From positions 1 to 50,989 of the forward strand of contig NZ_JACCWG010000360.1 in the NCBI RefSeq assembly GCF_013697775.1: DNA of 50,989 nucleotides, written 5' to 3'. Source of the stretch: Ramlibacter sp. GTDB taxonomy: Bacteria; Pseudomonadota; Gammaproteobacteria; Burkholderiales; Burkholderiaceae_C. Below the pieces are notes generated by a model. The model saw only the letters and a list, made by a program, of their open reading frames with translations, did no database searches and was not told the origin of the DNA. Shown piece after piece: positions 1 to 17,339 of the stretch. Position numbers and translations under genes: made by a program. Position 1 is the stretch's first letter, and every line of letters begins with the position of its first letter.

Positions 1-194
1 GCCCGAGGCAGTCGCCGCCTCTTTCGCTTGGCGCGCCCTATCGGGCAGGCCATCCGCATTTCACTTGGACCACTTGACATCAAGGCACGGCTTTGGGAGG
101 AATGCTTGGGTGAGGTAAGCAGCAAGCTATGTTCTTCCCCCGTTTTCAACGGGCTCAGAACGCTTGGTCTGCCGACCACAGGAGAACCCAAGCC
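1..194. other. Non-coding region upstream of mobC, candidate oriT
   Basis: No credible gene lies here. A perfect 6-bp inverted repeat with a 3-base loop (CCCGTT/AACGGG) sits at 139-153, and a short GCCC/GGGC dyad lies near 37-46. In MOBP systems oriT is normally directly upstream of the mobC/relaxase genes, so this is the expected place. I could not recognise a known nic sequence, so oriT is inferred from position only. Confidence 0.3.
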
Positions 195-1921: not shown

Positions 1922-1958
1922 ACCGAACCACACAACCGTTAAATTAGAGGAGGACGAC

Positions 1959-2969
1959 ATGGACACGAGAAACAGATCGATCGCAAGGAAGGCAGCGCCC
2001 GCCGCAGCGCGGGATGCCTACATTAGCTTCAACAAGGACGAATGGGCCGGGCTGCAAGAGCTCGGCTTCCGGGAGCGCTGGGCTTACATGCAGTTGAAGT
2101 GGCTGGCCAATTTCAAGACCGGCATGGTGGGCAATTTCCGCAAGCAGCGCCTGACCTATCAGGACATCGCTAACCTCGTGACCGCGCCGGGAGTGCAGGG
2201 CAGGGGGATGGGCAACATCGACGACACCCAGGCGGCGGATTTTGTGGGCCGCTTAACTGGCGTGGGTCTGTTAGTGCAGCACCCCAACCGCGGCAACGGC
2301 GGGCTGCTGTTCGAGCTACCACTCTCCCCCATCAACCGCCAGGCGTCTGCATTACGGACGCCGGTTTCGATGCCGCAGGAGCAGGGCCGCGCCTCCGAGC
2401 AGATTTCCCCGGATTGGGGCACGCCGGAGCCGGTCTTTTCCCCGGGCGGCGACACGCCGCCATTTGACGATATCCCAATGGCTACGGGGCTTTCCGACGT
2501 GGTTGACCCCTCTCTATCAGTATTGGCTTTAACAAAGTTAAAGAACAATACTGACGCGGCGGGTGCGGCTAGCGCCGACGCCGCCCCGCCCAGCCGCGCC
2601 ACCGACGCGGCTGCCGACCTGGAAAATCCCCGCAGGGAAGCATCGACAGGCGCGTCGCTGACCGCGCGCGACATCCAGGCAGTTATCGCCGGGGACTGGA
2701 CCTTTACGCAAACCGACACCCCGGAAGCGAAGATGCTTTATGACTCGTGGGCGGGCGCGGGCATCACCTTGGACGACCTGTATGCGGCCATGGCGAGCCT
2801 AGAAGGCCACGACGGAAGCGCCGAACTGACCCCGGCAAGCCTGACACCCAGGCTCTGGCCTCGGGTGGTAGATGGCTGGGTTGGCCAGTTGGCAGCCTGC
2901 CCCAGCGAAATGACCAGCGGCCCGGACAGGCGGGCCGCGTTTTGCCAAGGTATCCAGATAGCCCGCTGA
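1959..2969 (+). CDS. Putative winged-helix replication-associated protein of the element
   Basis: 336 residues; the ATG at 1959 is preceded by a strong AGAGGAGG site. The N-terminal ~110 residues (SFNKDEWAGLQELGFRERWA, LTYQDIANLVTAPG, DFVGRLTGVGLLVQHPNRG) read like a winged helix-turn-helix with a wing ending in GGLLFELPL, a layout seen in plasmid/phage replication or partition accessory proteins. A low-complexity Ala/Pro/Asp linker (about 130-230) follows, then a helical C-terminal part. The linker-coding DNA contains an AT-rich 38-bp palindrome (2517-2554). I do not recognise a named family; a role in replication of the excised element is inferred from fold impression and position between relaxase and ardC. 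Confidence 0.5.
   Translation: MDTRNRSIARKAAPAAARDAYISFNKDEWAGLQELGFRERWAYMQLKWLANFKTGMVGNFRKQRLTYQDIANLVTAPGVQGRGMGNIDDTQAADFVGRLTGVGLLVQHPNRGNGGLLFELPLSPINRQASALRTPVSMPQEQGRASEQISPDWGTPEPVFSPGGDTPPFDDIPMATGLSDVVDPSLSVLALTKLKNNTDAAGAASADAAPPSRATDAAADLENPRREASTGASLTARDIQAVIAGDWTFTQTDTPEAKMLYDSWAGAGITLDDLYAAMASLEGHDGSAELTPASLTPRLWPRVVDGWVGQLAACPSEMTSGPDRRAAFCQGIQIAR
2517..2554. repeat. AT-rich imperfect palindrome inside the rep-like gene
   Basis: Left arm TCAGTATTG + (G) + CTTTAAC at 2517-2533, spacer AAA, right arm GTTAAAG + (AA) + CAATACTGA at 2537-2554. The outer 9-bp and inner 7-bp arms are perfect, offset by a one- or two-base bulge. It stands out as the most AT-rich stretch in an otherwise GC-rich gene. 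It is translated (residues about 187-199) but looks selected as DNA, for example as an origin or operator. Confidence 0.7.
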
Positions 2970-3012
2970 CCGGAGGCACCGGCCGCTGTGGTGGGCAATT
3001 CGGGAGAGGGGC

Positions 3013-3981
3013 ATGGGAGACATCAGGCAACAGGTGACCGACCAGATAGTGGCCCTAATGGACCAGGAAGGTGGCGTGCCGCCTTGGCGCAAAAGCTGGT
3101 CCTCTGCGTGTCTGCACTTCAATGCCAGCAGTGGGGCCACCTACAAAGGCATTAACCAGCTCATTTTGGCCATGGCAGCGCCAGGCGATGGGGACCCACG
3201 GTGGCTAACCTACAAGCAGGCCGAATACATGGGCTTGCAGGTGCGCAAAGGTGAGCGAGGCACCCACATCGTCAAGATGGTGGAGGTCAATCGCAGGCAG
3301 GCAGCGAAAGAGGCGGAGGCCGGAGGCGATGTGCTGGCGGAAGATGGCGCCAAGGCATTGGTCATGAAGGCTTACACGGTGTTTAACGCCAGCCAGATCG
3401 ATGGGATGGCACCGATGCCCGCACGCAAATGCGACATCACCTGCGCCGACGCAGTGAAGCAGATCATCTTCGGCCTCCAAGGCACTGGTCTCAAAGTCAA
3501 TTTGGGGCAGGGCTTCCAACCGGCCTACTACCCCCGCACGGATGAAGTCCGTATTCCACCGGCCATCGAGTTTTCCAGTTTGGAGGACTTCCACGCCACC
3601 CTTTTGCACGAGGCGGCCGGGCACGCAACGGGCCACCCGAAGCGTCTGGCTCGATTGCACATGGATGCGCGGTTTGGATCGCCGGAATATGCGCGCGAAG
3701 AACTTCGCGCCGAGCTTGTCAGCAGCATGATGCAAGGAGTTATTGGCCTGCCTCCCGGCCCCACAATGACTGCGCAGCATGCGGCGTATTTGGGCAGTTG
3801 GTTGCAAGCACTAAAAAACGACAAGAACGAGATTTTCAGGGCTGCCGCCGACGCCCAAAAGATTTGCGATTACGTGACCAAGCTGGCAGTCGAAGCACAA
3901 CCGTTAGTAGTCAAAGAAAAGGCTGACGAGGCGCGGTCTGAGTTGGTGATCATGGCGCGACCTGCCGGCGTAACTCTGTGA
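3013..3981 (+). CDS. ardC: ArdC-like antirestriction protein (ssDNA-binding domain plus zincin-like metallopeptidase)
   Basis: ArdC-type proteins protect incoming conjugative DNA from host restriction. 322 residues, ATG preceded by GGGAGAGGGG. Residues about 5-130 match the ArdC N-terminal ssDNA-binding domain (PPWRKSW, YKGINQLIL, RWLTYKQAEYMGLQVRKGERG). Residues about 185-290 are the metallopeptidase-like domain: FHATLLHEAAGHATGHPKRL, then EELRAELVSSMM. The zinc motif is odd: H199-E200-A-A-G-H204 has three residues between HE and H, where the family normally has HExxH followed by xTGH. The codons are clean, so this is a one-residue insertion rather than a frameshift. It may weaken metal binding, but ssDNA binding could persist. 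It sits between element maintenance and defence genes. Confidence 0.85.
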   Translation: MGDIRQQVTDQIVALMDQEGGVPPWRKSWSSACLHFNASSGATYKGINQLILAMAAPGDGDPRWLTYKQAEYMGLQVRKGERGTHIVKMVEVNRRQAAKEAEAGGDVLAEDGAKALVMKAYTVFNASQIDGMAPMPARKCDITCADAVKQIIFGLQGTGLKVNLGQGFQPAYYPRTDEVRIPPAIEFSSLEDFHATLLHEAAGHATGHPKRLARLHMDARFGSPEYAREELRAELVSSMMQGVIGLPPGPTMTAQHAAYLGSWLQALKNDKNEIFRAAADAQKICDYVTKLAVEAQPLVVKEKADEARSELVIMARPAGVTL

Positions 3982-4062
3982 AGTTGCGGACGGTGGTTCA
4001 AATCGCAAATGACTATTGAGGCGCCCTCTGCGTAGCGGCTTCCCTACGCGGTCGGTCTCCCA

Positions 4063-4080
4063 ATGGCGCGGACGCGCCAT
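4063..4080. promoter_or_regulatory. Perfect hairpin in the leader of the defence operon
   Basis: ATGGCGC-GGAC-GCGCCAT, a 7-bp perfect stem. A second dyad, GCGTAG/CTACGC, lies just upstream near 4030-4047. Both are in the 167-bp gap between ardC and the RHH gene (3982-4148), the only sizeable gap in this part of the element, so the operon promoter is expected here. CATAAT at 4121-4126 is a possible -10. There is no T-run, so a terminator is unlikely. Binding by the RHH protein is a guess. Confidence 0.3.
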
Positions 4081-4148
4081 CGGCAGGGAGAACCCGAAAG
4101 CATCCAGCATGAGAGCAGGACATAATCGTATTTCGGATGTAGTGCGCT

Positions 4149-4385
4149 ATGCAGTTCCGACCCAGCATGCCCAGCCCAAAGTCCGCCCCGACGACGTTCC
4201 GCTTCCAGCCGGAGGTGCGGAGCGCTCTGGCCGTCATCGCCGAACGGCAGGGGCGGAGCATGGCGAACATGCTCGAGTGGTTGATCAAAAAGCACTGCGA
4301 GGCCGAGAAGCTTGGCTGGCCACCGGCCGAGGGCGCGACGACGCGGAGCAAAGCGCAGGCGGCCTCGAGCAGGCGGCGCGAATGA
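4149..4385 (+). CDS. Small ribbon-helix-helix DNA-binding protein
   Basis: 78 residues. The core APTTFRFQPEVRSALAVIAE followed by RQGRSMANMLEWLIKKHC fits an Arc/MetJ-type RHH fold: a short beta strand (TTFRF), helix 1, then a Gly-containing turn and helix 2. It is the first gene of the defence operon and overlaps nothing, while the methyltransferase starts 29 bases downstream, so it could be the operon's autorepressor. An ATG at 4167 is an alternative start; neither has a strong ribosome site. The Arg/Ala-rich C-terminal tail shows no further domain. Confidence 0.65.
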   Translation: MQFRPSMPSPKSAPTTFRFQPEVRSALAVIAERQGRSMANMLEWLIKKHCEAEKLGWPPAEGATTRSKAQAASSRRRE

Positions 4386-4414
4386 ACACGGCGAACAGCC
4401 GGAGGAGAGGGCGG

Positions 4415-5431
4415 ATGTCAGACGAGAAAGACGGGGGCGACGAGTCCGAGCAGCTAACGCTCGCGACCGAGGGGCCAGGCGCTCCGGCGGCGCGGCTGTT
4501 GCGAGCGCGGGAGAAAGCGAAGCCCGCGAACATCCTCACCGAGAGCCATGCGATCTGGCAGGGCGACGTGTTGGAGTTCTTGAAGGGCCTTCCGTCGACG
4601 CCGGTGTTCGACCTGATCGTCACCTCCCCGCCTTACAACATCGGCAAGTCCTACGAAACGCGCCAAGGCCTGGACGAATACATCGCCTGGCAGGAGACTA
4701 TCGTCGACGAGCTCGTGCCGCGGTTGAAGCCGGGCGGCAGCCTTTGCTGGCAGGTCGGCAACTTCGTCGAGGACAACCAGATCCACCCGCTCGACATCGA
4801 GTTCGCGCCAATGTTCCGCAGGCACAAGCTCCAGATGCGCAACCGCATCGTCTGGACCTTCGGGCACGGGCTGCACACCCAGAAGCGGTTCTCCGGCCGC
4901 TACGAGGTGGTCCTTTGGTATACGAAGACTACCGGCAAGAAGGACCCCTACACCTTCAACCTCGACGAGGTGCGCGTGCCGGCCAAGTATCCCGGCAAGA
5001 AACACTTTAAGGGCCCCAACGCGGGCCAGCTCTCGGGCAACCCGCTGGGCAAGAACCCCGAGGACGTGTGGAACATCCCCAACGTCAAGAGCAACCACGT
5101 CGAGAAGACCGACCACCCATGCCAGTTCCCGGTGGGCCTGGTCGAGCGGCTCGTGATCGCCCTGAGCAACCCCGACGACCTGGTGTTCGACCCGTTCGCG
5201 GGCGTGGCATCGGCCGGCGTCGCGGCGGCGATCCACGGACGCAAGTTCTGGGGCTGCGAGCTCAAATCGAATTACGCCCGCACCGGGCAGGCCAGGGTCC
5301 AGGCCGCCCTGCAGGGTAGAGCCGTCTACCGCCCCCACGACAAGCCCATCTACGACCACACCAAGAGTCCGCTGTCGCGACCGCCTTGGCCATCGGCCTC
5401 CATCGATGGCGAAGACGGGGCGGCACGATGA
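4415..5431 (+). CDS. Beta-class DNA methyltransferase (N6-adenine or N4-cytosine)
   Basis: Transfers a methyl group from S-adenosylmethionine to DNA, presumably marking self. 338 residues. The catalytic motif IV TSPPYNIG is at residues 70-77 and the SAM-binding region DPFAGVASAG at 259-268, so motif IV precedes motif I as in the beta class. TSPPY occurs in both N4-C and N6-A enzymes, so the modified base is undecided. An upstream ATG at 4382 overlaps the RHH stop, but the ATG at 4415 has GGAGGAGAGG at an ideal distance (4401-4410) and is chosen. No target-recognition domain of type I or III is seen. The stop overlaps the next start (ATGA), as expected for co-translated M and R genes. Confidence 0.9.
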   Translation: MSDEKDGGDESEQLTLATEGPGAPAARLLRAREKAKPANILTESHAIWQGDVLEFLKGLPSTPVFDLIVTSPPYNIGKSYETRQGLDEYIAWQETIVDELVPRLKPGGSLCWQVGNFVEDNQIHPLDIEFAPMFRRHKLQMRNRIVWTFGHGLHTQKRFSGRYEVVLWYTKTTGKKDPYTFNLDEVRVPAKYPGKKHFKGPNAGQLSGNPLGKNPEDVWNIPNVKSNHVEKTDHPCQFPVGLVERLVIALSNPDDLVFDPFAGVASAGVAAAIHGRKFWGCELKSNYARTGQARVQAALQGRAVYRPHDKPIYDHTKSPLSRPPWPSASIDGEDGAAR

Positions 5432-5886
5432 AGCACTACACGCTCGACCACTGCGCGGGAGCCGCGGCGATCCCGGCCAGTCACCGCAAACAGATCGCAG
5501 ACGCGATCTCCGCCGTCACATTGAAGCTCGGGCCTGGCAAGTCCACGTCGCTGCGCGGGCTGCTGATCACCCAGCTCAAAAGCCACGGGTGGGCCGACGA
5601 AGTGCGCCTGTCCGCCGACTCGGACATGACGATCACCTCCTGCAAGGACGACATCGGTCTCTGCTTGCAGACGGGGAATATGTCCAGGATTTACGCCGAC
5701 CTGATGAAGCTGCAAGCCATGTATCTCGACGACAAGATCAAGGCGGCCGCGATCATCCTCCCCTCGCAAACGGCGGCGAAGCTCCTCGGGAGCAACGTCG
5801 CGCAAGCCAAGCGCCTCGAGCGCGAGCTGGCCATCTTCAAGAAGGCCTACCACGTCCCCACCGTCGTCTACGCCCTGGAAGCCTGA
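5428..5886 (+). CDS. Small BglII/BstYI-like putative restriction endonuclease
   Basis: 152 residues, ATG overlapping the methyltransferase stop by four bases. Residues about 55-115 (DEVRLSADSDMTITS, KDDIGLCLQTGNMSRIYADL, KAAAIILPS) recall the core of BglII/BstYI-type enzymes, where an Asp is followed by a strand with E-x-Q. Here the aligned strand reads C-L-Q, so the expected Glu is apparently Cys while the Gln, the following Asn and the helix rich in Asp/Leu/Lys are kept. Position directly behind a methyltransferase supports a restriction role. The protein is shorter than BglII. Family assignment is by remembered pattern; catalysis is uncertain, and it might be a DNA-recognition subunit. Confidence 0.5.
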   Translation: MKHYTLDHCAGAAAIPASHRKQIADAISAVTLKLGPGKSTSLRGLLITQLKSHGWADEVRLSADSDMTITSCKDDIGLCLQTGNMSRIYADLMKLQAMYLDDKIKAAAIILPSQTAAKLLGSNVAQAKRLERELAIFKKAYHVPTVVYALEA

Positions 5887-5887
5887 C

Positions 5888-7192
5888 ATGCCCGAAACCC
5901 AGATGCCCCTCGACCCCAAGCTCTCCCGGTTCGGGTGGACCAAGGCGATGCGCCAAGAGGAGTTCAAGAAGGCCCGCGAGCAGGCGCCCACGGCGCACTA
6001 TCGTCTCGTGCTGCAAGGGCAGACGCTCGACCTCCCGATCGTCCGCGTCCACCAGAACTTGGCCAAATACCGGCTGGAGAACGGGCGGACAGCGTCGGCC
6101 CAGGTCCAGTTCCTGGCCGAGAACCCAGGCAAGCCCAAGGAGCTGTTCAGCGGCGACCCGGAGCTGTGGGAGGCGCAGGAGGCGCAGCACGACCTCCTGT
6201 TGAAGCTCGCCGAGAAAAGTGATCTGCGCAAGTATTTCGAGGAGGCCACCAACAAGCAGGTGGAGCCCATCATCCTCGACGAGAACGGGTTCGTCATCAA
6301 CGGGAATCGGCGGCTCGCCACCTGGCGGGATCTGTTCCACCGCGACGGCGGCAAGTTCGGGCGATACGAATACATCGACGTGGTGGTTCTCCCGCACGTG
6401 GACGACAAGGCCATCGACCGGCTCGAGGCGTCGTTGCAGATCGAGAAGGACATCAAGGCCGACTACACCTGGGACGCGCAGGCCAACATGATGATGGCCA
6501 AGCGCAGCGAATACTCCGACAAGGAGCTCGCCGAGCTGTATGGGAAGAAGGACACGGAGATCGTCGAGTTGCTCGACATGCGTTCCTACGCGGACGAATG
6601 GCTCAAAACGCGCGGCAAGGAGAACATGTGGTCGCTGGTCTCCGGCGCCGAGCTCGCCTTCCGGCGCATCGTCACCAAGCGCAAGGACATCGGCGGCACC
6701 GGCCGCCAGCAGCTCTTGAAGCACTTCGCTTTCGCGATGATCGACAAGCCCGAGGAGGTGAAGGACAGCCTGCACGACGCCATCAACGTCCTGGCCAACC
6801 ACATGGACGCGATCGTCGAGAAGTTCAAGGCGGAGTTCCCCATCGAGGACGCGAAACCCGACGCTGCGACGGAAGACCTCTTCGGGGGCGGGCCGCAACA
6901 AGGCGCGACGGAAGCCGTCGATCTCGCGTTGTCCAAAGAAATCGGGAAGGTCGAGCACGCCGACAAGTCGCGCAAGATCATCGTCGACTACATCGACGCG
7001 CAGAAGCAGTTGAAGCGCGACACGAAGACCGCCGAGAAGCTCTTGGATTGCTGCGCGAAGGCCAACTCCTTGCTCGAAGACGGCTTGAAGATCGGGCTCG
7101 GCGCCGACACGAAGACGGAAGGCGTCGAGAAGCAGCTCGAGCAGATCGTGCTCAAAGTCGAGAAGATCCGCGAGTTCCTCGCCAAGAAGTGA
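5888..7192 (+). CDS. ParB/Srx-domain protein of the defence operon
   Basis: 434 residues, starting one base after the previous stop. The N-terminal half has the ParB/sulfiredoxin-like fold signature: a strand-forming LPIVRVHQNLAKYRL, then VEPIILDENGFVINGNRRLA (residues about 128-147), where GNRR is the conserved phosphate-binding box, then RLEASLQIE. ParB-type domains can bind or cleave nucleotides or DNA. It is not a chromosomal ParB: no helix-turn-helix partition core or ParA partner is nearby. The C-terminal ~150 residues are charged and helical, ending in a coiled-coil-like Lys/Glu segment. The stop overlaps the helicase ATG (TGATG), so the two are probably made in stoichiometric amounts. 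Confidence 0.72.
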   Translation: MPETQMPLDPKLSRFGWTKAMRQEEFKKAREQAPTAHYRLVLQGQTLDLPIVRVHQNLAKYRLENGRTASAQVQFLAENPGKPKELFSGDPELWEAQEAQHDLLLKLAEKSDLRKYFEEATNKQVEPIILDENGFVINGNRRLATWRDLFHRDGGKFGRYEYIDVVVLPHVDDKAIDRLEASLQIEKDIKADYTWDAQANMMMAKRSEYSDKELAELYGKKDTEIVELLDMRSYADEWLKTRGKENMWSLVSGAELAFRRIVTKRKDIGGTGRQQLLKHFAFAMIDKPEEVKDSLHDAINVLANHMDAIVEKFKAEFPIEDAKPDAATEDLFGGGPQQGATEAVDLALSKEIGKVEHADKSRKIIVDYIDAQKQLKRDTKTAEKLLDCCAKANSLLEDGLKIGLGADTKTEGVEKQLEQIVLKVEKIREFLAKK

Positions 7193-9018
7193 TGCTCAGC
7201 ATCGACTACCGCGCCTCGGACCTGTCGGCGGTGCTCGCGTGGGCACCTGAGGACGAGGGCCAGCCGTGGGCGCCGCTCCTGCGCCGCCTGGTTCTGGACC
7301 ACACGCCCAACGCCAAGCAGGAGAGCGGCCACGCCATCTCGCTTCCCTGGTGGAACTTCGTGGCGCTGCGCGGCGGTTTGCAGAACATCTTCGCCACCTT
7401 CGAGCTCCGACTCGGCGTCGGATATCAGGTGGGCGACGCGGCGCGGGACTTGCTGCAACGCTCGCGGCGCGTGGCCAGCAGCTACGAGGACGCCCTCCGT
7501 GGCCAGGCGCTCGACGAGACCATGCTGCGCGGCTACCTGCGCGAGATCGGCTTCACGCGCGAACTCTCGCCCGAGCAGGCCCGCAACGTCAGGAAAATGG
7601 CGGCGCTCCCAGCCGCGGCTACGTTCTCCGTCCCCGGCGCTGGCAAGACGACCGAGGCGCTCGCCACCTTCTTCTACAAGGCCCGCGAGGCCGAACGTCT
7701 GCTCGTGATAGCCCCTAAAAACGCGTTCGCCGCGTGGGACGAGCAGATCAGGGACTGCATGCCGGCGCTTGGGGCGAGCTTCGTGCGGCTGCGGGGAGGC
7801 GACAAGATCGAGCGGCTGCTGGCCGATGACCCGCGCTTCATGCTCATTGGCTACCAGCAACTCGCCTTGGTCGGCGGAGTGATCGCGGCCCACTTGGCTC
7901 GCCGGTCGACATTCGTGTTCCTGGACGAGAGCCACCGCATCAAGAGCGGCAAAGCCAAGCAGACCGCCCGCGCGGTGCTCGGTCTCGCGCATCTCCCGGT
8001 TGGCAAGTTGATCATGTCCGGCACGCCCATGCCGCAGTCCGACGAGGACCTCATCCCCCAGTTCTCGTTCCTCTACCCCGAGATCGCCACGACGAAGGAC
8101 GATGTGCTCGAGCGCGTCAAACCGATCTACGTGCGGACCAACAAGCGCGAGCTCGGACTGCCTCCCGTGACGCGGCACCGCGTGCGGCTTCAGATGGCAC
8201 CCTTGCAGCGAGAGTTGTATCGCTTGATGAAGTTCGAGGTGGCGCGCGAGGCCCGCGCGGCGCTTCTCAACGCGCGCGGCAGGCAGGCGTTCCGCGCCCT
8301 CGGCCGCTCCGTGACTCGCCTGCTTCAATTCGTCTCCAACCCTTCGCTTCTGGGGTCGGAGCTGGCTTTCGCCAAGCCGGAGCTCCTCGCGGCCGTCCTG
8401 CAAGAAGGCGAAGGCCCGAAGCTCAAATACGTCCTGCGGCGCGCGAGGCAGCTCGCCGGGGAGAACAAGAAGGTCCTCATCTGGTCCTCTTACCGCAAGA
8501 ACGTGGAATACATCGCCGACCGCCTGAGCGATCTCGGCGCGGTCTACATCCACGGCTCGGTCGAGGCCGGCGACGAGGACGACGACGACACGCGTGAAGG
8601 CAAGATCAGGCAGTTCCATCAGGACGCGCACACCATGGTGATGGTTGCCAATCCGGCAGCGGCGAGCGAAGGGATCAGCCTGCACCGCGTATGCCACCAC
8701 GCCATCTACCTTGACCGCACGTTCAACGCGGCGCACTACCTTCAATCCGAGGACCGCATCCACAGGTTCGGACTGGCGCTCGACCAGGACACCACGATCG
8801 AAATCGTGGAGTGCGAGGAGACCGTCGACGAGACGGTGCTCGAGCGGCTCAATTACAAGATCGGCCGCATGGCCGAGGCCCTCGAAGACTCTTCGCTGCT
8901 CGTGGAGCCGATCGACCTGGACGAGGATGACATCGACGGCTACGACGAATACTCGGCGGGCCTGAGCTCCGATGACATCGAGGCGCTCCTGCGGGACTTC
9001 GACCGGGAGGCAGCTTGA
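7192..9018 (+). CDS. SNF2-family DNA helicase/translocase
   Basis: 608 residues. Superfamily 2 motifs in order: Walker A SVPGAGKTT (146-154), DESH Walker B (245-248), motif III SGTPMP, motif IV KKVLIWSSYRKN, motif V NPAAASEGISLH and motif VI QSEDRIHRFG with arginine finger. The N-terminal ~130 residues precede the helicase core and have no family I recognise. A SNF2 translocase next to a methyltransferase and nucleases suggests ATP-driven DNA scanning or remodelling, as in DISARM- or type I-like systems. Acidic runs (EDDDD near residues 463-467, DLDEDDIDGYDEY near the end) are notable. Start ATG 7192 overlaps the upstream stop; the stop overlaps the next TTG start. Confidence 0.88.
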   Translation: MLSIDYRASDLSAVLAWAPEDEGQPWAPLLRRLVLDHTPNAKQESGHAISLPWWNFVALRGGLQNIFATFELRLGVGYQVGDAARDLLQRSRRVASSYEDALRGQALDETMLRGYLREIGFTRELSPEQARNVRKMAALPAAATFSVPGAGKTTEALATFFYKAREAERLLVIAPKNAFAAWDEQIRDCMPALGASFVRLRGGDKIERLLADDPRFMLIGYQQLALVGGVIAAHLARRSTFVFLDESHRIKSGKAKQTARAVLGLAHLPVGKLIMSGTPMPQSDEDLIPQFSFLYPEIATTKDDVLERVKPIYVRTNKRELGLPPVTRHRVRLQMAPLQRELYRLMKFEVAREARAALLNARGRQAFRALGRSVTRLLQFVSNPSLLGSELAFAKPELLAAVLQEGEGPKLKYVLRRARQLAGENKKVLIWSSYRKNVEYIADRLSDLGAVYIHGSVEAGDEDDDDTREGKIRQFHQDAHTMVMVANPAAASEGISLHRVCHHAIYLDRTFNAAHYLQSEDRIHRFGLALDQDTTIEIVECEETVDETVLERLNYKIGRMAEALEDSSLLVEPIDLDEDDIDGYDEYSAGLSSDDIEALLRDFDREAA

Positions 9019-9872
9019 TCACCCTGTCGCCTGGCTTGGCCTCCGGGTGCTTCGTGCTGTTGGCGATGGCGCAGCGGCACCGCATGCCATTCGAGCGCAT
9101 GCGAGCCGAGCTGCCGCGCTACGAGCGGATCGACGTGGCAAGGCTACTCGAAGTCTCCCAGCAGCTCGCATGGCTCCGCGCCAACGACTCCGGTCAGGCC
9201 GTTCTCACCCCTCGCGGAGAGCGCGTCCTGGCGGCTGCGACCGAGCCCCTGCGGCTGCGGCAAGCGTTGCTGGACTACGTGGAGATCGTCGCCCCTCCCT
9301 GGTTGAAGCTCGCGATCGATGGGCGGAAGAAGGTCCTCACGTTCGCCCCCAACGACATCCGGCAGTGTCTGGTGGAAGCCGAGCTCGCCGTGAGCTATGA
9401 GCCGCACGTCGTGAGGTTCTGGGACGAGCTCGCGTCCACCGCACGCGGCTTGCGCGGCGCCGAGCTCAACGAGATCGGCCGCGAGGGCGAGCGCCTGACC
9501 CTGGCTTACGAGAAGGCGCGCACCGGCCGGGATCCCAAATGGCGCTCGGTCGAGAGCAACAGCGACGGATATGACGTGCTCTCCGTCGCGGACCGCGACG
9601 ACGGGCGCGCCGTTCAGATCGAAGTGAAGGCCTCGAGGGCCGGCGCGGGTGGCTCAATGCACGTGACGCGCAACGAGTGGGACGCCACCGAGCTCATGCC
9701 CCTGCACCGCTTCCACCTCTGGGACGTGTCAAAGCCGCAAGCCCGGCTAGCCGTGCTTCCCCGCGACGCCCTCGCCCCACACGCTCCGGTCGACTCTGGG
9801 TCCGGACGATGGGAAGTGTTCGAGCTTCCCTTCGCGGCGTTCGCCGCCCTCTTTCAACCCGTGGCCGTATAG
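9015..9872 (+). CDS. DUF3883-domain protein, putative nuclease-fold component
   Basis: 285 residues; TTG start at 9015 inside the helicase stop, with GGGAGG four bases upstream. Residues about 155-250 carry the DUF3883 pattern: GREGERLTLAYEKA, then SNSDGYDVLSV, then AVQIEVKAS and a late TRNEW. The D...E-V-K spacing is that of a PD-(D/E)xK nuclease core, and DUF3883 occurs in several defence genes. The N-terminal 120 residues look like a helical, winged-helix-like region (MRAELPRYERIDVARLLEVS). It could be the DNA-cleaving partner of the SNF2 protein; activity is inferred. Confidence 0.75.
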   Translation: MITLSPGLASGCFVLLAMAQRHRMPFERMRAELPRYERIDVARLLEVSQQLAWLRANDSGQAVLTPRGERVLAAATEPLRLRQALLDYVEIVAPPWLKLAIDGRKKVLTFAPNDIRQCLVEAELAVSYEPHVVRFWDELASTARGLRGAELNEIGREGERLTLAYEKARTGRDPKWRSVESNSDGYDVLSVADRDDGRAVQIEVKASRAGAGGSMHVTRNEWDATELMPLHRFHLWDVSKPQARLAVLPRDALAPHAPVDSGSGRWEVFELPFAAFAALFQPVAV

Positions 9873-9874
9873 AC

Positions 9875-11434
9875 ATGCAGAGCCCCTTCGACTCCCAGCT
9901 CTCCGCGCTCGCGCAAGCGAACTCGCTGGCCAAGATGCACCGCCTGGCGGGTCTCGATCAATCCGTTGCTTCGATGCTCCGTGACGTGAACGCGCTCACC
10001 GCGCACGGCGGCCTCGAGAGGCTTCGACAGCAGACGGAGAGCATCCTGGGCACGAAGGACTACTTGCTCCGCGAAGCCAGGAAGATCGCCAGCGCGATCG
10101 AGGACGCCGAGTCGGTGCGGAGACGCTACGCGAGCGTTTTCTCGGACGCCTTAGGGGACATGGAGCGATATCGACGCATGGTGGGCGACGCCGTGGGGCC
10201 CTTATCCGCGCTGCGGTCCGTCGCCCTATATGAGAGCGAAGCGGCGCGACTGGCCAGGCAATCGGGCGGGCTCCTGGGCGCCGCTGGCATCAAGAGCTAC
10301 GCCGAGGCTTTCTCCGCTACCGAGCAGCTCCGCAAACAACAAGAATTGCTTGCCACGAACCTCGGCGAGTCCCTGGCTGGGCGCTGGCTTTCCTCGGCCC
10401 GCGACATCGCGCAACAGTTCGCGAGCGCCAAGGACATCATCGACAAGCAGGCAAAAGCGTGGCGCGACGCCACCGCTTTCGATCCGGCTCAGCTTGCGAG
10501 AGGCCTCGGGATGCCGGTGATGGACGCCGCCTCCTTCGCGGCGATCGCAAGATCCTCGGGCGTCGAAGGCTTGCTTTCTCAGTTGAAGTTGTTTGGCATC
10601 GATGAGGCGACGCTTCGCGCTGTTGCATCCACGGTGGCAGAGGACGAGGACGACATTGAGGAGCTGCTTCGAGACTCGGGTGAGACGGATGGAACGCCCC
10701 GCCGGCAACTGACTAAGGCGCAACTCGTCAGGCTGTGGAACATCGTTTTCATCCTCTATTCAGTGCTGTTCCCGCTTTACACCTGGTGGGACTCCAACCA
10801 AGCCGAAGCTCGAATCACGGGCGAGATGAAAGCCGCGGAGGCGCGCACGTCCGCGGAGATCGGAGCTTCCGAACAGCGCACCAGCGAGAAGCTCGGGGCC
10901 ATGGCCAAGCTGATGGAGCAGGTTGTGGAGATCGCCGAGCAAGAGGTGCTCGCCGAGACGAACATGGTCGTTCGTGAGCGCGTGGCCACCATTAGGGCTG
11001 ATCCGCGCCACGGAGCCGGCGTGGTCGCAGAGGCCTTCCCAAACCAAGTCGTTACGCTTCTGGAAGAACGCGGGAAGTGGATCAAAGTGGAGTATTACGA
11101 CTGGCTTGCTCGTGATGAACGCACAGGTTGGGCGTTGAAGAAATATTTCGTCAGGGCGGAGCCAGCCTTCCGCGCTTCCCGCGGACACAGGCTCGGGTCG
11201 AGCGACCGGCGTCAGAGCGCGGGCGGCGCCAACAATGAGGATGCTGCAACGGCGGGGCAGGGCGACGCTGGATCAGTCTTTGTGGCTGAGGCCGAGCAAA
11301 CGCTCGCTCGGCGCGGGGTCGAGGACCGCGGCACGCATCCGCTGCTGCTCATCGACAAGCCCCTCACTAAGGAGGAGGCCAAGGCTCGCATCCGCGCCAT
11401 CAAGGCCTTGGCAAGAGAGGGAAAGCTGCGGTGA
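9875..11434 (+). CDS. Membrane-anchored coiled-coil protein with SH3b domain
   Basis: 519 residues, ATG two bases after the DUF3883 stop. Residues 1-270 are helical and rich in Ala, Arg, Gln and Glu, like a long coiled coil or helical bundle. One hydrophobic segment, LWNIVFILYSVLFPLYTWW, spans about 287-305. A short repeat-rich helix with ITGEMKAAEARTSAEIGASE and EQRTSEKLG follows. Residues 363-435 form an SH3b-like domain (VRERVATIRADP, GKWIKVEYYDW, GWALKKYFVR). The C-terminal tail is polar and ends in a basic helix. No enzyme motif is visible. Within a defence operon it may be a membrane effector or sensor. Function is unknown. Confidence 0.6.
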   Translation: MQSPFDSQLSALAQANSLAKMHRLAGLDQSVASMLRDVNALTAHGGLERLRQQTESILGTKDYLLREARKIASAIEDAESVRRRYASVFSDALGDMERYRRMVGDAVGPLSALRSVALYESEAARLARQSGGLLGAAGIKSYAEAFSATEQLRKQQELLATNLGESLAGRWLSSARDIAQQFASAKDIIDKQAKAWRDATAFDPAQLARGLGMPVMDAASFAAIARSSGVEGLLSQLKLFGIDEATLRAVASTVAEDEDDIEELLRDSGETDGTPRRQLTKAQLVRLWNIVFILYSVLFPLYTWWDSNQAEARITGEMKAAEARTSAEIGASEQRTSEKLGAMAKLMEQVVEIAEQEVLAETNMVVRERVATIRADPRHGAGVVAEAFPNQVVTLLEERGKWIKVEYYDWLARDERTGWALKKYFVRAEPAFRASRGHRLGSSDRRQSAGGANNEDAATAGQGDAGSVFVAEAEQTLARRGVEDRGTHPLLLIDKPLTKEEAKARIRAIKALAREGKLR

Positions 11435-11967
11435 GCGAGGAGGAACTGGACGCGTTCGCGCCTCCCCTCATCCACATCCACGTCAAATTCGCCGATGGGT
11501 CGCTCGATGGACCATTTCTCGTGGACCTCATGAACATGGGCGACGACGAAGACGACGCATTGGCAGCTTGGCTGTCCGACCTTTCGCAAGGCAACACGCA
11601 CCAGGGGCGGAACAAGCCCTCGTGGCTCTTGAATCAGGATGGCTCCCCAAGGGCAGGCACCTATCACAGCAACAAAATCTGGCATTACCACTGCGGACCG
11701 GCGTTTAAGGCGAATGCTGCGGCTACTCTGACCGCAGCGGACTTGCCGCACAACGAGAACGGCCTTACCTCAGGAACTTGCATCCACTATTCAAAGCTGG
11801 CGACACCGATGCTGGCTGAGCGGCGAGACCTCACGGTTCTCGGGTATTCGCGTGAACACGCGCCGTTCCTCAGAGATGACGACCGCAGCAATCCATTGCG
11901 CTCACGCGCGGCCAAGGTTGGCGACTCCGTTCCGGCCACGTCGGTCGGCTTGGGTCCAGCGGAGTAG
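11431..11967 (+). CDS. Small protein of unknown function with WHYHCG motif
   Basis: 178 residues, GTG start overlapping the previous stop (GTGA). Acidic N-terminus, then a central segment with KIWHYHCGPAF and later GTCIHYSKL. The aromatic/His-rich segment could form a metal or active site, but I recognise no family. Being the last gene of the tightly coupled operon, it probably belongs to the same system. A 109-bp gap with a possible TATCAT -10 near 12048 separates it from the next cluster. Confidence 0.45.
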   Translation: MSEEELDAFAPPLIHIHVKFADGSLDGPFLVDLMNMGDDEDDALAAWLSDLSQGNTHQGRNKPSWLLNQDGSPRAGTYHSNKIWHYHCGPAFKANAAATLTAADLPHNENGLTSGTCIHYSKLATPMLAERRDLTVLGYSREHAPFLRDDDRSNPLRSRAAKVGDSVPATSVGLGPAE

Positions 11968-12076
11968 TTCGAGCTAAAGTGTGCAACGGCGGGAGGGCGC
12001 CCTGAAGCACCACCGGTCACGCGTGCCGCAGCCCTTTTAGAGCCCGCTATCATGGCTCATCGGTAAAGGAGACCCG

Positions 12077-12550
12077 GTGGGCATCAAGCGGCTACTTCCT
12101 GAATTTCTCGTCGGCAAGGTGAGCCCCGAGCAATACGCTCGCTGGCTAGAGCGAAAGGCTGCCGCTCACGTCAAGCGCGATCGCAAACGCGATTTCGACG
12201 GGGCCGTAGGTGCGGCCTACCGTGACGCCATCCACCAGGCCGTCATCCTCAGCTCGGGTCGGGACGCCTACACCGGTGAAGACCTGCACTGGGAGCTTCT
12301 GAGCCAATACGACAACGAAAAGTCGAAGGCGGGCCGCAGCGTCTACAAAGCGAGCTTCGGTCTATTGCCGACCGTGGATCACCTGGACGCCAGCGCGAGC
12401 GCGATTTCGTTCCGCATCTGCGCTTGGCGCACCAACGACGCCAAGAACGATCTCACCCATGAGACCTTCCTTGATCTTTGCCACCGGGCGCTTCTGCATG
12501 CGGGCTACACCGTCGCCGCGCCCGGAAAACCAATAGCACGCGAGGAATAG
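12077..12550 (+). CDS. HNH-like nuclease-fold protein
   Basis: 157 residues; GTG start with AAAGGAG six bases upstream. The segment YTGEDLHWELLS, then LLPTVDHLD (D101-H102), then FRICAWRTNDAKNDLTHE (N120, N124) follows the beta-beta-alpha order of HNH nucleases: DH pair, Asn, and a helix of family-typical sequence. The zinc cysteines of some HNH proteins are absent. It opens a second cluster with the ankyrin-like and KAP genes; whether the three form one system is unknown. Confidence 0.6.
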   Translation: MGIKRLLPEFLVGKVSPEQYARWLERKAAAHVKRDRKRDFDGAVGAAYRDAIHQAVILSSGRDAYTGEDLHWELLSQYDNEKSKAGRSVYKASFGLLPTVDHLDASASAISFRICAWRTNDAKNDLTHETFLDLCHRALLHAGYTVAAPGKPIAREE

Positions 12551-12552
12551 AG

Positions 12553-13515
12553 ATGCCCCGTCCGGAGAAAAGCTCCCCAAAGGAATACGCCACGCTGTTT
12601 CTGGCGCGTGCGATCTGCGAAGGCAGCCTGCCGATGGCCCGCGCCGCCATCGAGGCCGGAGCGGACCCAAATGCGTTCTGGATCGACGGCCGCACAAAGC
12701 TTGGGGAATTGGCTCGCCGGCGAGGCCTCGAGAAGCTCGACGCTTATTTCACGGAGCTTGCCGCGCCCGAGGTTTCAGGCGCGCTGCGGCCTTACGCGCG
12801 CTACGACGCGACTGGAAACGACCATGGTGTCTGGAGCTCCGACTTTGTGAAGTTTGTGGCCCGGCGCGGCTACGACTTTCGGACCTTTCCAGGACCGTTC
12901 GCAACAACGAACGAGCCGCCCATAAAGTCCGCGAAGTCCGGAGTGGATCTGATAATGAATCGGTGGCACATCGTGGAGAGCATCACGCCCGGCGACGAGG
13001 ACGGCGAGAGCCATTGGGCGATCTCGTTCTCCACCAGCGTGCCGGACTCGCGGCTTCCGCGCCATTACATCGGCTTTCGGGTGCCGGCTACTGGGGTGGC
13101 TTTGCTTAGCCAGTTCAAAGACCCGTCTGAGTCTCAGGCTGCATCGAACGACCTGGATCCGATTTTTGACAAGCAGAAGGCGTGGGAAGGCCGGCATGTC
13201 ATGGACTCAATGTTGGATCGGAGCTACACGCTAAACGACGTGGTCAGCCGTCTTCGCAAGGGCGGCAACCCGTTCTTTACGTGGAAGGGCGCCATGCTCG
13301 GCGATTTTTCCGGCGATCCGCCGGACATCATGGCGTTCATGTCTCGGGTGCGGGAGCTCTGCGCCCCCGAGCTTGGCTTCCACCGCCGCCTCGCGCCCTT
13401 GCTTGAAAAGAAGGCGCTCCTGGCGTTGATCGCGGCTTCAGATATCGAGATGGCCACTGGAACGGCGAAGGTCGGGCGCAAGACGCTGGCCGAGGGCCGC
13501 AAAGACACTCTGTGA
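12553..13515 (+). CDS. Ankyrin-like N-terminus, otherwise unrecognised protein
   Basis: 320 residues, ATG at 12553 with GAGGAA upstream, two bases after the HNH gene stop. Residues about 12-60 resemble one or two ankyrin repeats (ARAICEGSLPMARAAIEAGA, DPNAFWIDGRTKLGELARRRGLEKL). The remainder contains aromatic beta-type segments (HWAISFSTSV, HYIGFRVPATG) and a helical C-terminus. I do not recognise the larger domain. Likely co-transcribed with the HNH-like gene. Confidence 0.5.
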   Translation: MPRPEKSSPKEYATLFLARAICEGSLPMARAAIEAGADPNAFWIDGRTKLGELARRRGLEKLDAYFTELAAPEVSGALRPYARYDATGNDHGVWSSDFVKFVARRGYDFRTFPGPFATTNEPPIKSAKSGVDLIMNRWHIVESITPGDEDGESHWAISFSTSVPDSRLPRHYIGFRVPATGVALLSQFKDPSESQAASNDLDPIFDKQKAWEGRHVMDSMLDRSYTLNDVVSRLRKGGNPFFTWKGAMLGDFSGDPPDIMAFMSRVRELCAPELGFHRRLAPLLEKKALLALIAASDIEMATGTAKVGRKTLAEGRKDTL

Positions 13516-13569
13516 GCCAGCTGCGCGCGGCGGCCCCGCCGAGAGTCCTGCAGAACGGAAGGATTGAGC

Positions 13570-15318
13570 ATGTCGCTCGAGAAGACTAAACAGCAATTAG
13601 TCCGGCTGCTCGCTGAGCAGGACAGCAGCGTCATCGCGTTGTCAGGCAAGTGGGGCACCGGGAAGACGCACCTTTGGAACGAGGTCAAGGGCGCATCCGG
13701 CGACGAGAAGGTCAAGAAGGCCCTCTACGTGTCGTTGTTCGGCCTCTCGAGCGTCGACCAGGTGAAGCGCAAGCTGATCGAGTCGGCCATACCCGGCGTC
13801 GACTCCCACGGCGGCGTGTTCGACGGGATCAAGAGCCTGTTCAACGCCGGCGTGACTGCCGCCTCGCAGCACTTCAAAGCCATGGCGGCCCTCAAAGACC
13901 TCAACGTATTGTTGATGGCGCCTGTGGTGCTCCGAGACAAGCTGATCGTCATCGACGACATCGAGCGCAAGCACGCCAAGCTCGGCATCGACGAGGTTCT
14001 TGGGTTCATCGACGACTACTCCAAGCAGTTTCGGGTTAGGTTCGTTCTGGTGCTGAACGACGATCAACTCTCCACCGACGGCGACCAGGCGAAGTTGTGG
14101 GCGACCTTCCGGGAGAAGGTCATTGACGAAGAGATCAGGCTGTCGACGTCCCCGGAGGAGGCTTTCTCGATCGCCATCAAGCTGACGCCGTCGAAATACG
14201 AGCAGGCGCTCGAACGTGCGACAGCGGTCTGCGGACTCACCAACATCCGCATAGTCGGGAAGGTGGTGAAGACGGCCAACCAGATATTGGCCGGCCGAGA
14301 CTTGGACCAGGCGATCCAATCGCGAGTGGTGCCGTCCATCGTCCTGTTCTCCGCGATCCACTACCGCGGCATCCCAGACGGGCCGGACTTTCAATTCGCC
14401 CTGAACGTGGCGAACCCGGATTGGATGCATTTCGGCCGGGACAAGAACGCCGAGCCGACCGAGCAGGAGAAGCGCGAGGACGCGTGGCGCTTGCTGATGC
14501 AGGAGCTGGGCGTTCACGGCTGCGACGAGTTCGAGAAGGTGCTGGTCGAATTCTTGGAGTCCGGGCTGTTCGACGCCGACCAGGTGCAGGCCATCATCGA
14601 CCGGTTCGTGGCCGAGACGCAGGCGCTGCAAGCCAGGGAGGCGGCGCGCGACTTCTTGAAGCGGGCGTTCTGGGACCATCGCGTGAGCGAGGCCGATTTG
14701 CTGGCGGAGGCCGGTCAGTTCTCTGCCAGCGCCGGATTGCTGGATCCCTACGTGACCACCAATCTCTTCGACACTTTATCCGAGCTCCCCGGCGGGCAGG
14801 CTCTTGGCCAGGCGATCGTCGACGCGTGGATAGCCGCGTTCGCGGCTGGGGATCACCCCGACGTCGAGGACGACAACCCGTTCAACAATCCGATCCATCC
14901 GGACATCACGGCGGCGTTCGAGGCCGCCAAGGCGCGCGTCCAAGCGAGCGCCACGGTGGTCGACGCCTGTATCGACATCATCGACAACAGCGGGTGGGGC
15001 ACGCTGCAGGAGGTGGCCATGAGGCGGGCGACGGCCGGGGATTTCGAAACCGCCATACGAGGCATGGACATCGACAAGCTGCGTCGATTCATGCGGCGGA
15101 TGATCGAGATGCGGCTTCAACGAGCGACCTACGACGCTCACTTCGGCACGGCGACGCAGCACTTCATCGACGCCTGCCGCGCGATTTCGAACGACCCGAG
15201 TTCGCCGCGGCTAGCATCGTTGGTCAAAAAGCTCTTCGCCAGGACTGCCCTGGCTCCTGAGCTCAACCCACCAGCCGTGATTCATGCTGCCCAGCCCGCG
15301 CCGGCACACCAGGTATGA
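13570..15318 (+). CDS. KAP-type P-loop NTPase
   Basis: 582 residues; the ATG at 13570 has GGAAGGA six bases upstream, preferred over a TTG at 13564. Walker A GKWGTGKT at residues 26-33; Walker B LIVIDDIER near 125-133, the Asp-Asp-x-Glu form of KAP/STAND-like ATPases. QFRVRFVLVLNDDQL fits the sensor strand after Walker B. No transmembrane pair is evident, unlike classical KAP proteins. The C-terminal 250 residues are helical and may sense or recruit. It is the last gene of the element; KAP NTPases recur in phage-defence loci, so a defence ATPase is a reasonable inference. Confidence 0.72.
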   Translation: MSLEKTKQQLVRLLAEQDSSVIALSGKWGTGKTHLWNEVKGASGDEKVKKALYVSLFGLSSVDQVKRKLIESAIPGVDSHGGVFDGIKSLFNAGVTAASQHFKAMAALKDLNVLLMAPVVLRDKLIVIDDIERKHAKLGIDEVLGFIDDYSKQFRVRFVLVLNDDQLSTDGDQAKLWATFREKVIDEEIRLSTSPEEAFSIAIKLTPSKYEQALERATAVCGLTNIRIVGKVVKTANQILAGRDLDQAIQSRVVPSIVLFSAIHYRGIPDGPDFQFALNVANPDWMHFGRDKNAEPTEQEKREDAWRLLMQELGVHGCDEFEKVLVEFLESGLFDADQVQAIIDRFVAETQALQAREAARDFLKRAFWDHRVSEADLLAEAGQFSASAGLLDPYVTTNLFDTLSELPGGQALGQAIVDAWIAAFAAGDHPDVEDDNPFNNPIHPDITAAFEAAKARVQASATVVDACIDIIDNSGWGTLQEVAMRRATAGDFETAIRGMDIDKLRRFMRRMIEMRLQRATYDAHFGTATQHFIDACRAISNDPSSPRLASLVKKLFARTALAPELNPPAVIHAAQPAPAHQV

Positions 15319-15344
15319 ATTCCCTCAAGTGCCGCGCGCCGGCT

Positions 15345-15375
15345 GGGGATTAGCGGGGGACTGGCGGGGCAGGGG
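15345..15375 (+). other. Potential G-quadruplex at the element's right end
   Basis: Four G-runs of at least four: 15345-15348, 15355-15359, 15366-15369 and 15372-15375, with loops of 6, 6 and 2 bases. It lies between the last cargo gene and the mutS junction in the only non-coding part of the right end. Folding is predicted from sequence only. Confidence 0.5.
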
Positions 15376-15410
15376 CCAGCCATCCTCCAGCGCCATAAAT
15401 TGTCCCCGTG

Positions 15411-15479
15411 GTAGTGCTGCATCATGGGGGTGTGCTTGCTCAGGTCGGCCACCGGGGCCGCGACGGGGTTCTGGCTCAT
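15411..15479 (-). pseudogene. mutS: 5' fragment of mutS, cut by the mobile element
   Basis: Minus-strand ATG at 15479 followed by 23 codons ending SKHTPMMQHY, the conserved MutS N-terminal signature (usually followed by a Leu-rich helix, then YRMGDFYELF). After TAC at 15411 the frame runs on as HGDNLWRWRM with no MutS similarity and stops at 15282. The DNA-mismatch-binding domain is therefore missing here. suhB ends 72 bases upstream on the same strand, consistent with an original suhB-mutS order. The rest of mutS should lie left of the element, outside the window. Confidence 0.85.
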
Positions 15480-15551: not shown

Positions 15552-16460
15552 TCACTCGCTGGCGTCGGGAACCGGGTCGTCCTGCGGGCCGATGGACAAG
15601 GGCTCCACCAGGTTGGGCGTGGTGGCGCTCAGCTCGGTCTTCTCTTCCACGGTGGCGAACTTGCTGTACTTGCGCAGGATGCTGACCAGCTGGCCGTAGA
15701 TGCGCGGGTTGCCGGCCAGGCATTCGCGCTGCTCCAGGAAATCGGAGTCGCCGGTGAAGTTGCCGATCAGGCCGCCGGCCTCGGTCACCAGCAGCGAGCC
15801 CGCGCCCACGTCCCACGGCGACAGGCCGGTTTCGAAGAAGCCGTCGGTGAAGCCGGCCGCCACGTAGGCCAGGTCCAGCGCGGCGGCGCCGGGGCGGCGC
15901 AGGCCGGCGGTGATCTTCATCACGTCGGCCATCATGCGCAGGTAGTGGTTGAAGTTGTCGCCCGGGCGGAACGGAAAGCCGGTGGACACCAGGCACTGCT
16001 TGAGCATGGTGCGCTTGCTCACGCGGATGCGCCGGTCGTTCAGGTAGGCGCCGCGGCCGCGCGTGGAAGTGAACAGGTCGTTGCGGGTGGGGTCGTAGAC
16101 CACCGCCTGCTCCACGCGCCCCTTGACCAGCAGTGCGATGCTCACGCAATAGACCGGGAAGCCGTGGATGAAGTTGGTGGTGCCGTCCAGTGGGTCGATC
16201 AGCCACACATGGTCGGCCGCCGGGTTGCCGTGTTCGCGCCCCGATTCCTCGGCCCAGATGCCGTGGTGCGGGTAGGCCCCCAGCAGGGTCTCGATGATGA
16301 CGTTTTCGCTGGCGTGGTCGACTTCGGTGACGAAATCGTTGACCTGCTTTTGCGAGATGCGGACCGACTCCACGTCGAGCGCGGCCCGGTTGATGATCGC
16401 GCCGGCGGCGCGGGCGGCCTTGACGGCCATGTTGAGCATGGGGTGCTGGTTGGGCGACAT
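15552..16460 (-). CDS. suhB: Inositol monophosphatase family protein (SuhB)
   Basis: Mg-dependent phosphatase of inositol-1-phosphate; SuhB also binds the NusA/ribosomal RNA antitermination complex in other proteobacteria. 302 residues. Family motifs: WAEES (metal-binding Glu), [12 protein letters not shown] with the DPLDGT core, and [18 protein letters not shown] near the C-terminus. Start ATG at 16460 gives the usual N-terminus ([15 protein letters not shown]). The C-terminus extends past the usual core with a polar tail. It is divergent from trmJ and upstream of the broken mutS. Confidence 0.93.
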
Positions 16461-16583
16461 GGATTGTTCCGACGGGAAGAAGCGGGGCTGCAAACGCCCG
16501 CCACGGCCGTCCGAAAGAGCTGTGCTCGAAAGCGGAACCGCCCGGACGATGCGGGCGGCGACAATGGCGGCGATTTTACCCAG

Positions 16584-17339
16584 ATGCGTACCCGCTTCAT
16601 CCTCATCCAACCCAGCCACGCCGGCAACGTGGGCGCCGCGGCGCGCGCCATCAAGGTCATGGGCTTCGACGACCTGGTGCTGGTGGCGCCGCGCTGGCCC
16701 GACGTGCTCTCGCGCCCCGAGGCCATCGAGCGCGCCAGCGGCGCGACCGACGTGCTGCGCCGCGCGCGCGCCGTCGCCACGCTGGAAGAGGCGCTGGACG
16801 GCGTGGGCTACCTCTGCGCCACGGTGATGACCCCGCGCGACTTCGGCCCGCCCACGCACGCGCCGCGCGCGCACCTGACCACGCTGGCTGCGGCACAGGA
16901 GAGCGTGGCCTTCCTGTTCGGGTCCGAGCGCTACGGCATGCGCAACGAGGACGTGTACCGCTGCCACGCCGCGCTGCGCATCCCCACCGACCCGGACTAC
17001 GGCTCGCTGAACCTGGCGGCGGCGCTGCAGGTGATCGCGTACGAGTGGCGGACATGCCTGACAGACACCACCCCCGTTCGGGCTGAGCCTGTCGAAGCCG
17101 GCCCTTCGACAGGCTCAGGGCGAACGGAGGCGGCCGACGCCCAGTCCGTCGCCCGCATGCTGTCCCACTGGGAACAATCCCTGGTGGACATCGGCTTCCT
17201 CGACCCCGCCGCGCCCAAGAAGCTCATGCCGCGGCTGAACCAGCTGTTCAACCGGGCGCAGCCCACGCCCGAAGAGGTGCACATCCTGCGCGGCATCGCC
17301 AAAGCGATGTCCCAAGCGGGACGCAAGCCAAAGCTTTAG
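16584..17339 (+). CDS. trmJ: tRNA (cytidine/uridine-2'-O-)-methyltransferase TrmJ
   Basis: SPOUT-class enzyme that methylates the 2'-O of residue 32 in tRNAs. 251 residues. Motifs: [20 protein letters not shown] at the N-terminus, [18 protein letters not shown] (motif 2) and [20 protein letters not shown] (SAM-binding knot). After the catalytic domain, residues about 165-181 ([18 protein letters not shown]) are encoded by an inserted palindromic repeat, then the normal C-terminal helical region resumes ([27 protein letters not shown]). The insertion keeps the frame and falls in the interdomain linker, so the enzyme is probably functional. Confidence 0.92.
17076..17125. repeat. Palindromic REP-like element inserted in frame in trmJ
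   Basis: Arms GTTCGGGCTGAGCCTGTCGA... at 17076-17097 and its near-complement at 17104-17125, pairing at 20 of 22 positions around a 6-base centre. A half-copy with the same left arm is at 37415-37439. The element has no coding capacity of its own. Confidence 0.9.

Follow-up and report, generated by a model that had tools for sequence, protein, structure and literature searches.

Mobile elements that insert into the HTPMMQQ motif of the mismatch-repair gene mutS have been reported from hundreds of Beta- and Gammaproteobacteria, including V. splendidus 12B01, E. coli 536, P. putida F1, and B. multivorans CF2, and range from 4 kb to more than 150 kb (Chu et al. 2017, PMC5296598). According to that study, these elements supply a promoter and a translation start, and the integrated state appeared to give functional mutS; excision was measured and was scarless in three strains, whereas a 2-bp deletion in 12B01 led to hypermutation. 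A common ancestry of the mutS elements was also suggested there as a possibility. Earlier, in 2008, mutS-specific islands had been described in Burkholderia, namely GI8c of B. pseudomallei MSHR305 and Bt-GI4 of B. thailandensis E264 (Tuanyok et al., PMC2612704). Integration of SpyCI elements is described as parting mutL from its operon promoter and inactivating it, only a decayed island rescuing mutL via a cryptic promoter (PMC3430984). Promoters and N-termini are supplied to other target genes by SXT in prfC and IMEVchUSA3 in dusA (PMC8409611).

The window analyzed here (the whole stretch of 50,989 nucleotides) is contig C119 of an assembly of 480 contigs and 4.88 Mb, estimated as 97.7% complete and 2.8% contaminated. 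Its arrangement is that described by Chu et al. 2017 (PMC5296598), and the kind is thus already known. It is very probable that an integrative and probably mobilizable element of about 21.4 kb has entered mutS at the HTPMM codons by means of its own tyrosine recombinase, that the insertion orphans the host promoter and the first 15-20 mutS codons, and that the attachment site brings a ribosome-binding site (RBS), a TTG start, 21 codons, and HTPMM, fused in frame to the remaining mutS. MutS would then still be made, with an altered N-terminus and with transcription starting in the element, and precise excision would return mutS to its native start, in frame. The features of the window that bear on this reading are as follows.

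1-15419, no strand assigned: right-hand 15.4 kb of the element
539-1921, plus strand: relaxase (PF03432 and LPD7)
3013-3981, plus strand: ArdC-like antirestriction protein (PF08401 and PF18818)
4016-5431, plus strand: N6/N4 DNA methyltransferase (PF01555)
6598-9018, plus strand: SNF2-type helicase with weak likeness to defence helicases
9015-9872, plus strand: NOV_C-domain protein
13564-15318, plus strand: KAP-type P-loop NTPase, resembling the candidate defence model PDC-S49
15350-15419, minus strand: right end of the element, with the QHY codons beside the core, then two GGGGAC motifs (15356 and 15402)
15420-15434, minus strand: attR core CACACCCCCATGATG (codons HTPMM); the attL core, 5936-5950 of contig C99, is identical
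15435-15479, minus strand: orphaned host mutS 5' end, native ATG and codons 1-15 (MSQNPVAAPVADLSK)
15552-16463, minus strand: host inositol monophosphatase gene (suhB-like), lying upstream of the orphaned mutS start and pointing in the same direction

The minus strand of 15411-15479 translates as MSQNPVAAPVADLSKHTPMMQHY, which the initial annotation took as a 23-codon MutS N-terminus. About codons 1-20 (MSQNPVAAPVADLSKHTPMM) are indeed host-derived, but the last three, QHY (15411-15419), were assigned to element DNA because mutS on C99 has VQY at those positions (VQYLAIK after the core). The insertion lies inside the HTPMMQQ motif and leaves the orphaned host start at the element's opposite end; 72 bp separate the end of the suhB frame from this start. 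A conserved suhB-mutS operon was considered as a general rule and rejected, since suhB was present in the flank (up to 1.5 kb) of only one of the 29 relative loci (L013).

The remainder of mutS was found on contig C99 (locus L004) of the same genome, and the integrase gene (4073-5659) lies there as well. The initial annotation was right in proposing that a mobile element splits mutS near its start, and the missing codons, integrase, and short direct repeat that it suggested looking for are present. The repeat is the 15-bp core (His-Thr-Pro-Met-Met), at 15420-15434 of the window and 5936-5950 of C99; it is the longest exact word common to the two sides, with one copy in the window and one in the 20 kb of C99 examined when both strands were searched. 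The MutS N-terminal query found two places in the whole genome, C99 and the window fragment. A second intact mutS, which the initial annotation had named as an observation that would speak against it, was also sought and rejected, as the search for MutS domain V (MutS_V) gave a single match.

The two contigs begin with GCCCGAGGCAGTCGCCGCCT (window) and GCCTCGGGCAGTCGCCGCCT (C99). Read by eye, the reversed C99 overlaps the window end by 9 bp, and the join forms a hairpin of 14 perfectly paired bp around a loop of 3 bases; the hairpin arm GGCAGTCGCCGCCT occurs twice in the whole assembly, at bases 7-20 of C99 and of C119. The end of C99 therefore probably adjoins the left end of the window. With the two contigs taken as adjacent, the element measures 21,360 bp, its left-hand 5.9 kb on C99 carrying genes for the integrase, a C5 methyltransferase, and DUF2971 and DUF7673 proteins. 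The two element parts have GC contents of 0.638 and 0.619, compared with 0.686 for the window's host part.

On the element side of the mutS remainder, a GGAG sequence stands 8 nt before a TTG (5873) that opens 21 codons (TTG-ISKEDGQKVESLGGAADAQK) running in frame into HTPMM and mutS, an in-frame translation start of the sort that the initial annotation had thought the element might supply at its other end. The resulting MutS has 911 aa and five of five Pfam MutS domains, and it is the sole mutS product found in the genome; mismatch repair by MutS is probably retained despite the insertion. When the host flanks were joined by script, the predicted empty site (attB) gave a 905-aa frame that has no internal stop, and precise excision would therefore restore MSQNPVAAPVADLSKHTPMMVQY in frame and leave mutS intact too. 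No sigma-70-like promoter was matched by consensus in the 361 bp searched (L004 5600-5960). As the integrase gene is divergent, an element promoter is expected if MutS is made, and we infer such promoter activity within the element.

The same mutS gene contains at C99 7070-7205 an in-frame low-complexity insertion of about 33 residues with DERGSS-like repeats, which holds a palindromic repeat (TTCGACAGGCTCAG). A repeat insertion at this position is lacking in nine of the ten relatives compared, and L013 has a different one there. The palindromic repeat is also present in a trmJ-like gene (window 17068-17133), whose frame is unbroken, and further motif matches were located at window 37422 and at C99 19762 and 19796. 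As for the partner gene mutL, searches of the genome with MutL_C and with PF01119 gave no match. Its absence was nevertheless rejected: positions 1-241 of TIGR00585 match a frame on contig C480 (2-712) that runs into the contig end, so that an assembly break is most likely, and a mutL cut in this way explains the two negative single-domain searches.

The integrase is a tyrosine recombinase of 529 aa encoded on the minus strand (L004 4073-5659), with domains PF00589 and PF13356. R299, H422, R425, H448, and Y457, which we take to be the catalytic residues of the tyrosine recombinase family, are invariant in the eight integrases aligned, including that of the window element. The gene lies beside mutS and diverges from it, 213 bp separating the integrase start (5659) from the mutS TTG on C99, within the distance of less than 300 bp used in PMC5296598. 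GGGGAC motifs occur near both ends of the element (C99 5686, 5741, and 5782; window 15356 and 15402) against a background of 0.34 per kb in the host part, and are candidate arm sites for the integrase. Similar clusters are present beside attL in L006, L007, and L044-L046 and absent there in L047 and L048.

With regard to cargo, the relaxase suggests that the element is mobilizable, and it looks mobilizable because no conjugation (T4SS) families were detected among the 20 proteins scanned with Pfam. Two DNA methyltransferases are encoded, the N6/N4 enzyme in the window and the C5 enzyme on C99. The methyltransferase, SNF2 helicase, and NOV_C genes stand in a row (4016-9872) and resemble a defence or modification cluster, in which the NOV_C protein is possibly a nuclease or defence partner.

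The distribution of this integrase was further investigated in related genomes. MutS was detected in 40 of the 41 genomes searched, own included, and in 27 of the 29 relative loci (own excluded) the motif lay in a long open frame with varied native starts, the remaining two having been missed by the search pattern; the window's integrase had no match at any of these 29 loci. A contig scan revealed two close integrase relatives, in a Burkholderiales MAG (L006) and a Polaromonas MAG (L007), both beside mutS. At the family level, the integrase was detected in 6 of 399 genomes, own included (E<=1e-20), which added five relatives (L044-L048) with 62% to 33% identity, all beside mutS. Searches of the order and the class (E<=1e-25) yielded 2 of 398 and 3 of 368 genomes, respectively, besides the own genome, among which the G1081 integrase (L052) lies beside mutS; neither mutS within the 1.5-kb flanks nor an adjacent tRNA was found for the L050, L051, L053, and L054 integrases. 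Altogether, 8 of the 12 integrase relatives outside the own genome are located at mutS, and the four exceptions score below L052 with the same profile. An order search with the single integrase protein recovered only the own genome of 399, tblastn against plasmids and phages returned six records each with 22-32% identity, none covering 80%, and an IMG/VR scan with the integrase alignment gave 88 pattern stretches and no relative. In all nine mutS cases, the window's included, an open in-frame extension precedes the motif on the element side. The GGAG placed 8 nt before TTG is kept in L006 and L007; a simple pattern match shows a clear RBS in L004, L006, L007, and L052, a weak one in L048, and none ahead of the probable starts of L044-L047. 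The L006 integrase (5554-7130) looks frameshifted in its first 40 codons, by sequencing error or decay, and a small gene at 8111-8491 of its element was judged by eye to be MazF-like.

The orphaned mutS start could be located for six elements (the window's, L006, G423, G431, G640, and G1081). Core to core, L006 measures about 4.8 kb, G431 about 12.8 kb, G640 about 36.9 kb, and G1081 about 43.5 kb, each with the arrangement within a single contig, and the G423 element is spread over two contigs. No other end turned up within the 60 kb read of G438, or in G704 and G740 (both contig ends); in G438, suhB lies about 50 kb away with no mutS start after it. Between attL and attR, the HTP[MVL]M codons of the six elements show 0, 1, 1, 3, 3, and 3 differences, all 11 of which are synonymous, and in G640 the preceding three codons (FSA) also differ only silently. 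Since all differences are silent, what the element brings is a genuine first exon of mutS that codes for protein: if the crossover demanded identical DNA, silent differences would not arise, whereas a demand at the protein level would produce them. Read more cautiously, these codons may once have been copied by the element from the mutS of a different host. For E. coli 536, both sides are identical over FDAHTPMM, which is uninformative either way. Within the extensions, pS exceeded pN in five of six pairs, although the counts are low and some sequences serve in more than one pair.

These observations bear on what the insertion does to mutS. The initial annotation had expected it to abolish MutS and give a mutator phenotype, which is unsupported, given an element-supplied in-frame start and a sole mutS of full length. 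Inactivation would agree with the parting of the native promoter and start from mutS and with the lack of a consensus promoter in the element beside the gene, but it is very unlikely in view of the full-length in-frame MutS with RBS and start, the in-frame design of all nine such elements, the synonymous-only change of the shared codons in the six with both ends, and the apparently functional integrated mutS of PMC5296598. Even less probable is an assembly artefact, in which the fragment and C99 would come from different organisms or from a misjoin; the 480 contigs, the 2.8% contamination, and a contig junction deduced from contig ends leave some room for it, but the same arrangement recurs in single contigs (L006, G431, G640, and G1081), and the hairpin arm is confined to the two contig ends. 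Somewhat less improbable, though still unlikely, is a SpyCI-like switching of the mutation rate with growth phase, off when integrated and on when excised, which would be consistent with a mismatch-repair gene interrupted at its 5' end and with an integrase that keeps its presumably catalytic residues. However, SpyCI silences mutL (PMC3430984), whereas a start is supplied here, and integrated and excised states should therefore both give MutS, possibly at altered mutS expression levels. Certain findings also count against the preferred reading, integration with a replacement exon that keeps MutS, namely the missing promoter match, the RBS absent in L044-L047 and weak in L048, the deduced contig junction, the in-frame repeat insertion within MutS, and a pN for the window extension (0.13 vs. 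a pS of 0.22 against L006) that is not far below pS.

A different set of mutS-targeting integrases was identified by scanning IMG/VR with the MutS N-terminus, which gave 43 loci, at least 14 of which have a divergent integrase directly upstream of mutS (9 detected by the window-type profile and 5 more by Pfam). Ten such integrases given to Pfam all match PF13356 and PF00589, L081 under the PF00589 cut-off, and the His before Thr-Pro-Met-Met is lost in L080, L082, and L106. The tree built from 31 integrases places the nine window-type rows on one side of a branch (100/99), together with L050, L051, L053, and L054, and the prophage side includes the integrases of phi80 and three other phages as well as KS9 and Aval. 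The integrase of E. coli 536 (an annotated 249-aa piece) resembles those of the prophage clade, with 56% identity to L111. The record of phage Aval has, at its left end by the integrase, an 18-codon exon (MQEKTEPNQQLAGIPISE-HTPMMH-stop), and after the core it reads CATTAG, as on the element side of attR in E. coli 536, which is expected of a free attachment site. As Aval's own genome carries the exon, the exon belongs to the mobile DNA itself. The KS9 integrase (L119) is nested among those of mutS-inserted prophages and shows no HTPMM exon at its left end, possibly reflecting a change of target.

Two separate origins of mutS-targeting integrases are likely, though not proven because the outgroups are few, long branches meet, KS9 lacks a visible exon, and some targets are unassigned. 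That all of them share one origin, the window type being a diverged branch of the PMC5296598 family, is doubtful: window-type and prophage-type integrases have the same Pfam domains (PF13356 and PF00589), codons, and geometry, and common ancestry was suggested as possible in PMC5296598, but forcing the mutS-type rows, KS9, and Aval into a single clade costs 62.7 log units (p-AU 4.5e-6), a value to be read with an outgroup of only eight rows, some long-branched or of unlisted target, and with two long branches meeting in the tree. The first tree had only four outgroup rows, which were picked by the window-type profile, and the second tree added four more and two phages. Moreover, the E. coli 536 piece finds its match in the prophage clade; window-type rows come up only with E values of 0.99 or worse, ranking behind L050 and L051, which are not at mutS. 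We lean slightly towards the view that two tyrosine recombinase lineages converged on the same mutS codons, both with a portable first exon held by selection at the protein level and not by DNA identity, so that mutS would serve as a safe harbour without mutator cost while its regulation and N-terminus are replaced.

A split mutS need not mean a mutator, as the insertion here would exchange one gene start for another. Should the coding-exon reading be true, silent differences between attL and attR offer a test for selection that keeps a target gene working. Carriers of both integrase types would provide natural tests of whether elements rewire the mutation rate through mutS expression. This analysis adds to published work in two respects: silent codon differences speak for a portable mutS exon, and the integrase comparisons speak for a second lineage. 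In the literature consulted on mutS elements, neither the silent-codon test nor the two-clade result was found.

Compared with known systems, the betaproteobacterial counterpart at mutS proposed by the initial annotation does exist, but it is not new (PMC2612704, PMC5296598). The window element resembles SpyCI in lying in the 5' end of a mismatch-repair gene, but the effect described for SpyCI is a transcription block and a switchable mutator, and the account in PMC3430984, as far as consulted, describes no replacement exon. SXT and IMEVchUSA3 use target genes other than mutS (PMC8409611). Like GI8c and Bt-GI4, the element is a site-specific insertion in a betaproteobacterial mutS, and GI8c also has a 15-bp repeat (ACGCCGATGATGCAG) in the same codons (TPMMQ); unlike the window element, however, GI8c was called a putative prophage, and PMC2612704, as far as consulted, does not discuss a supplied start. 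The window integrase falls in another clade than those of prophage-type mutS elements, among them, by similarity, that of E. coli 536, and no 2-bp scar such as that of 12B01 (PMC5296598) is predicted. With the elements of PMC5296598, the window element shares the MutS codons, an integrase by mutS, a supplied start, an orphaned host start, and direct repeats.
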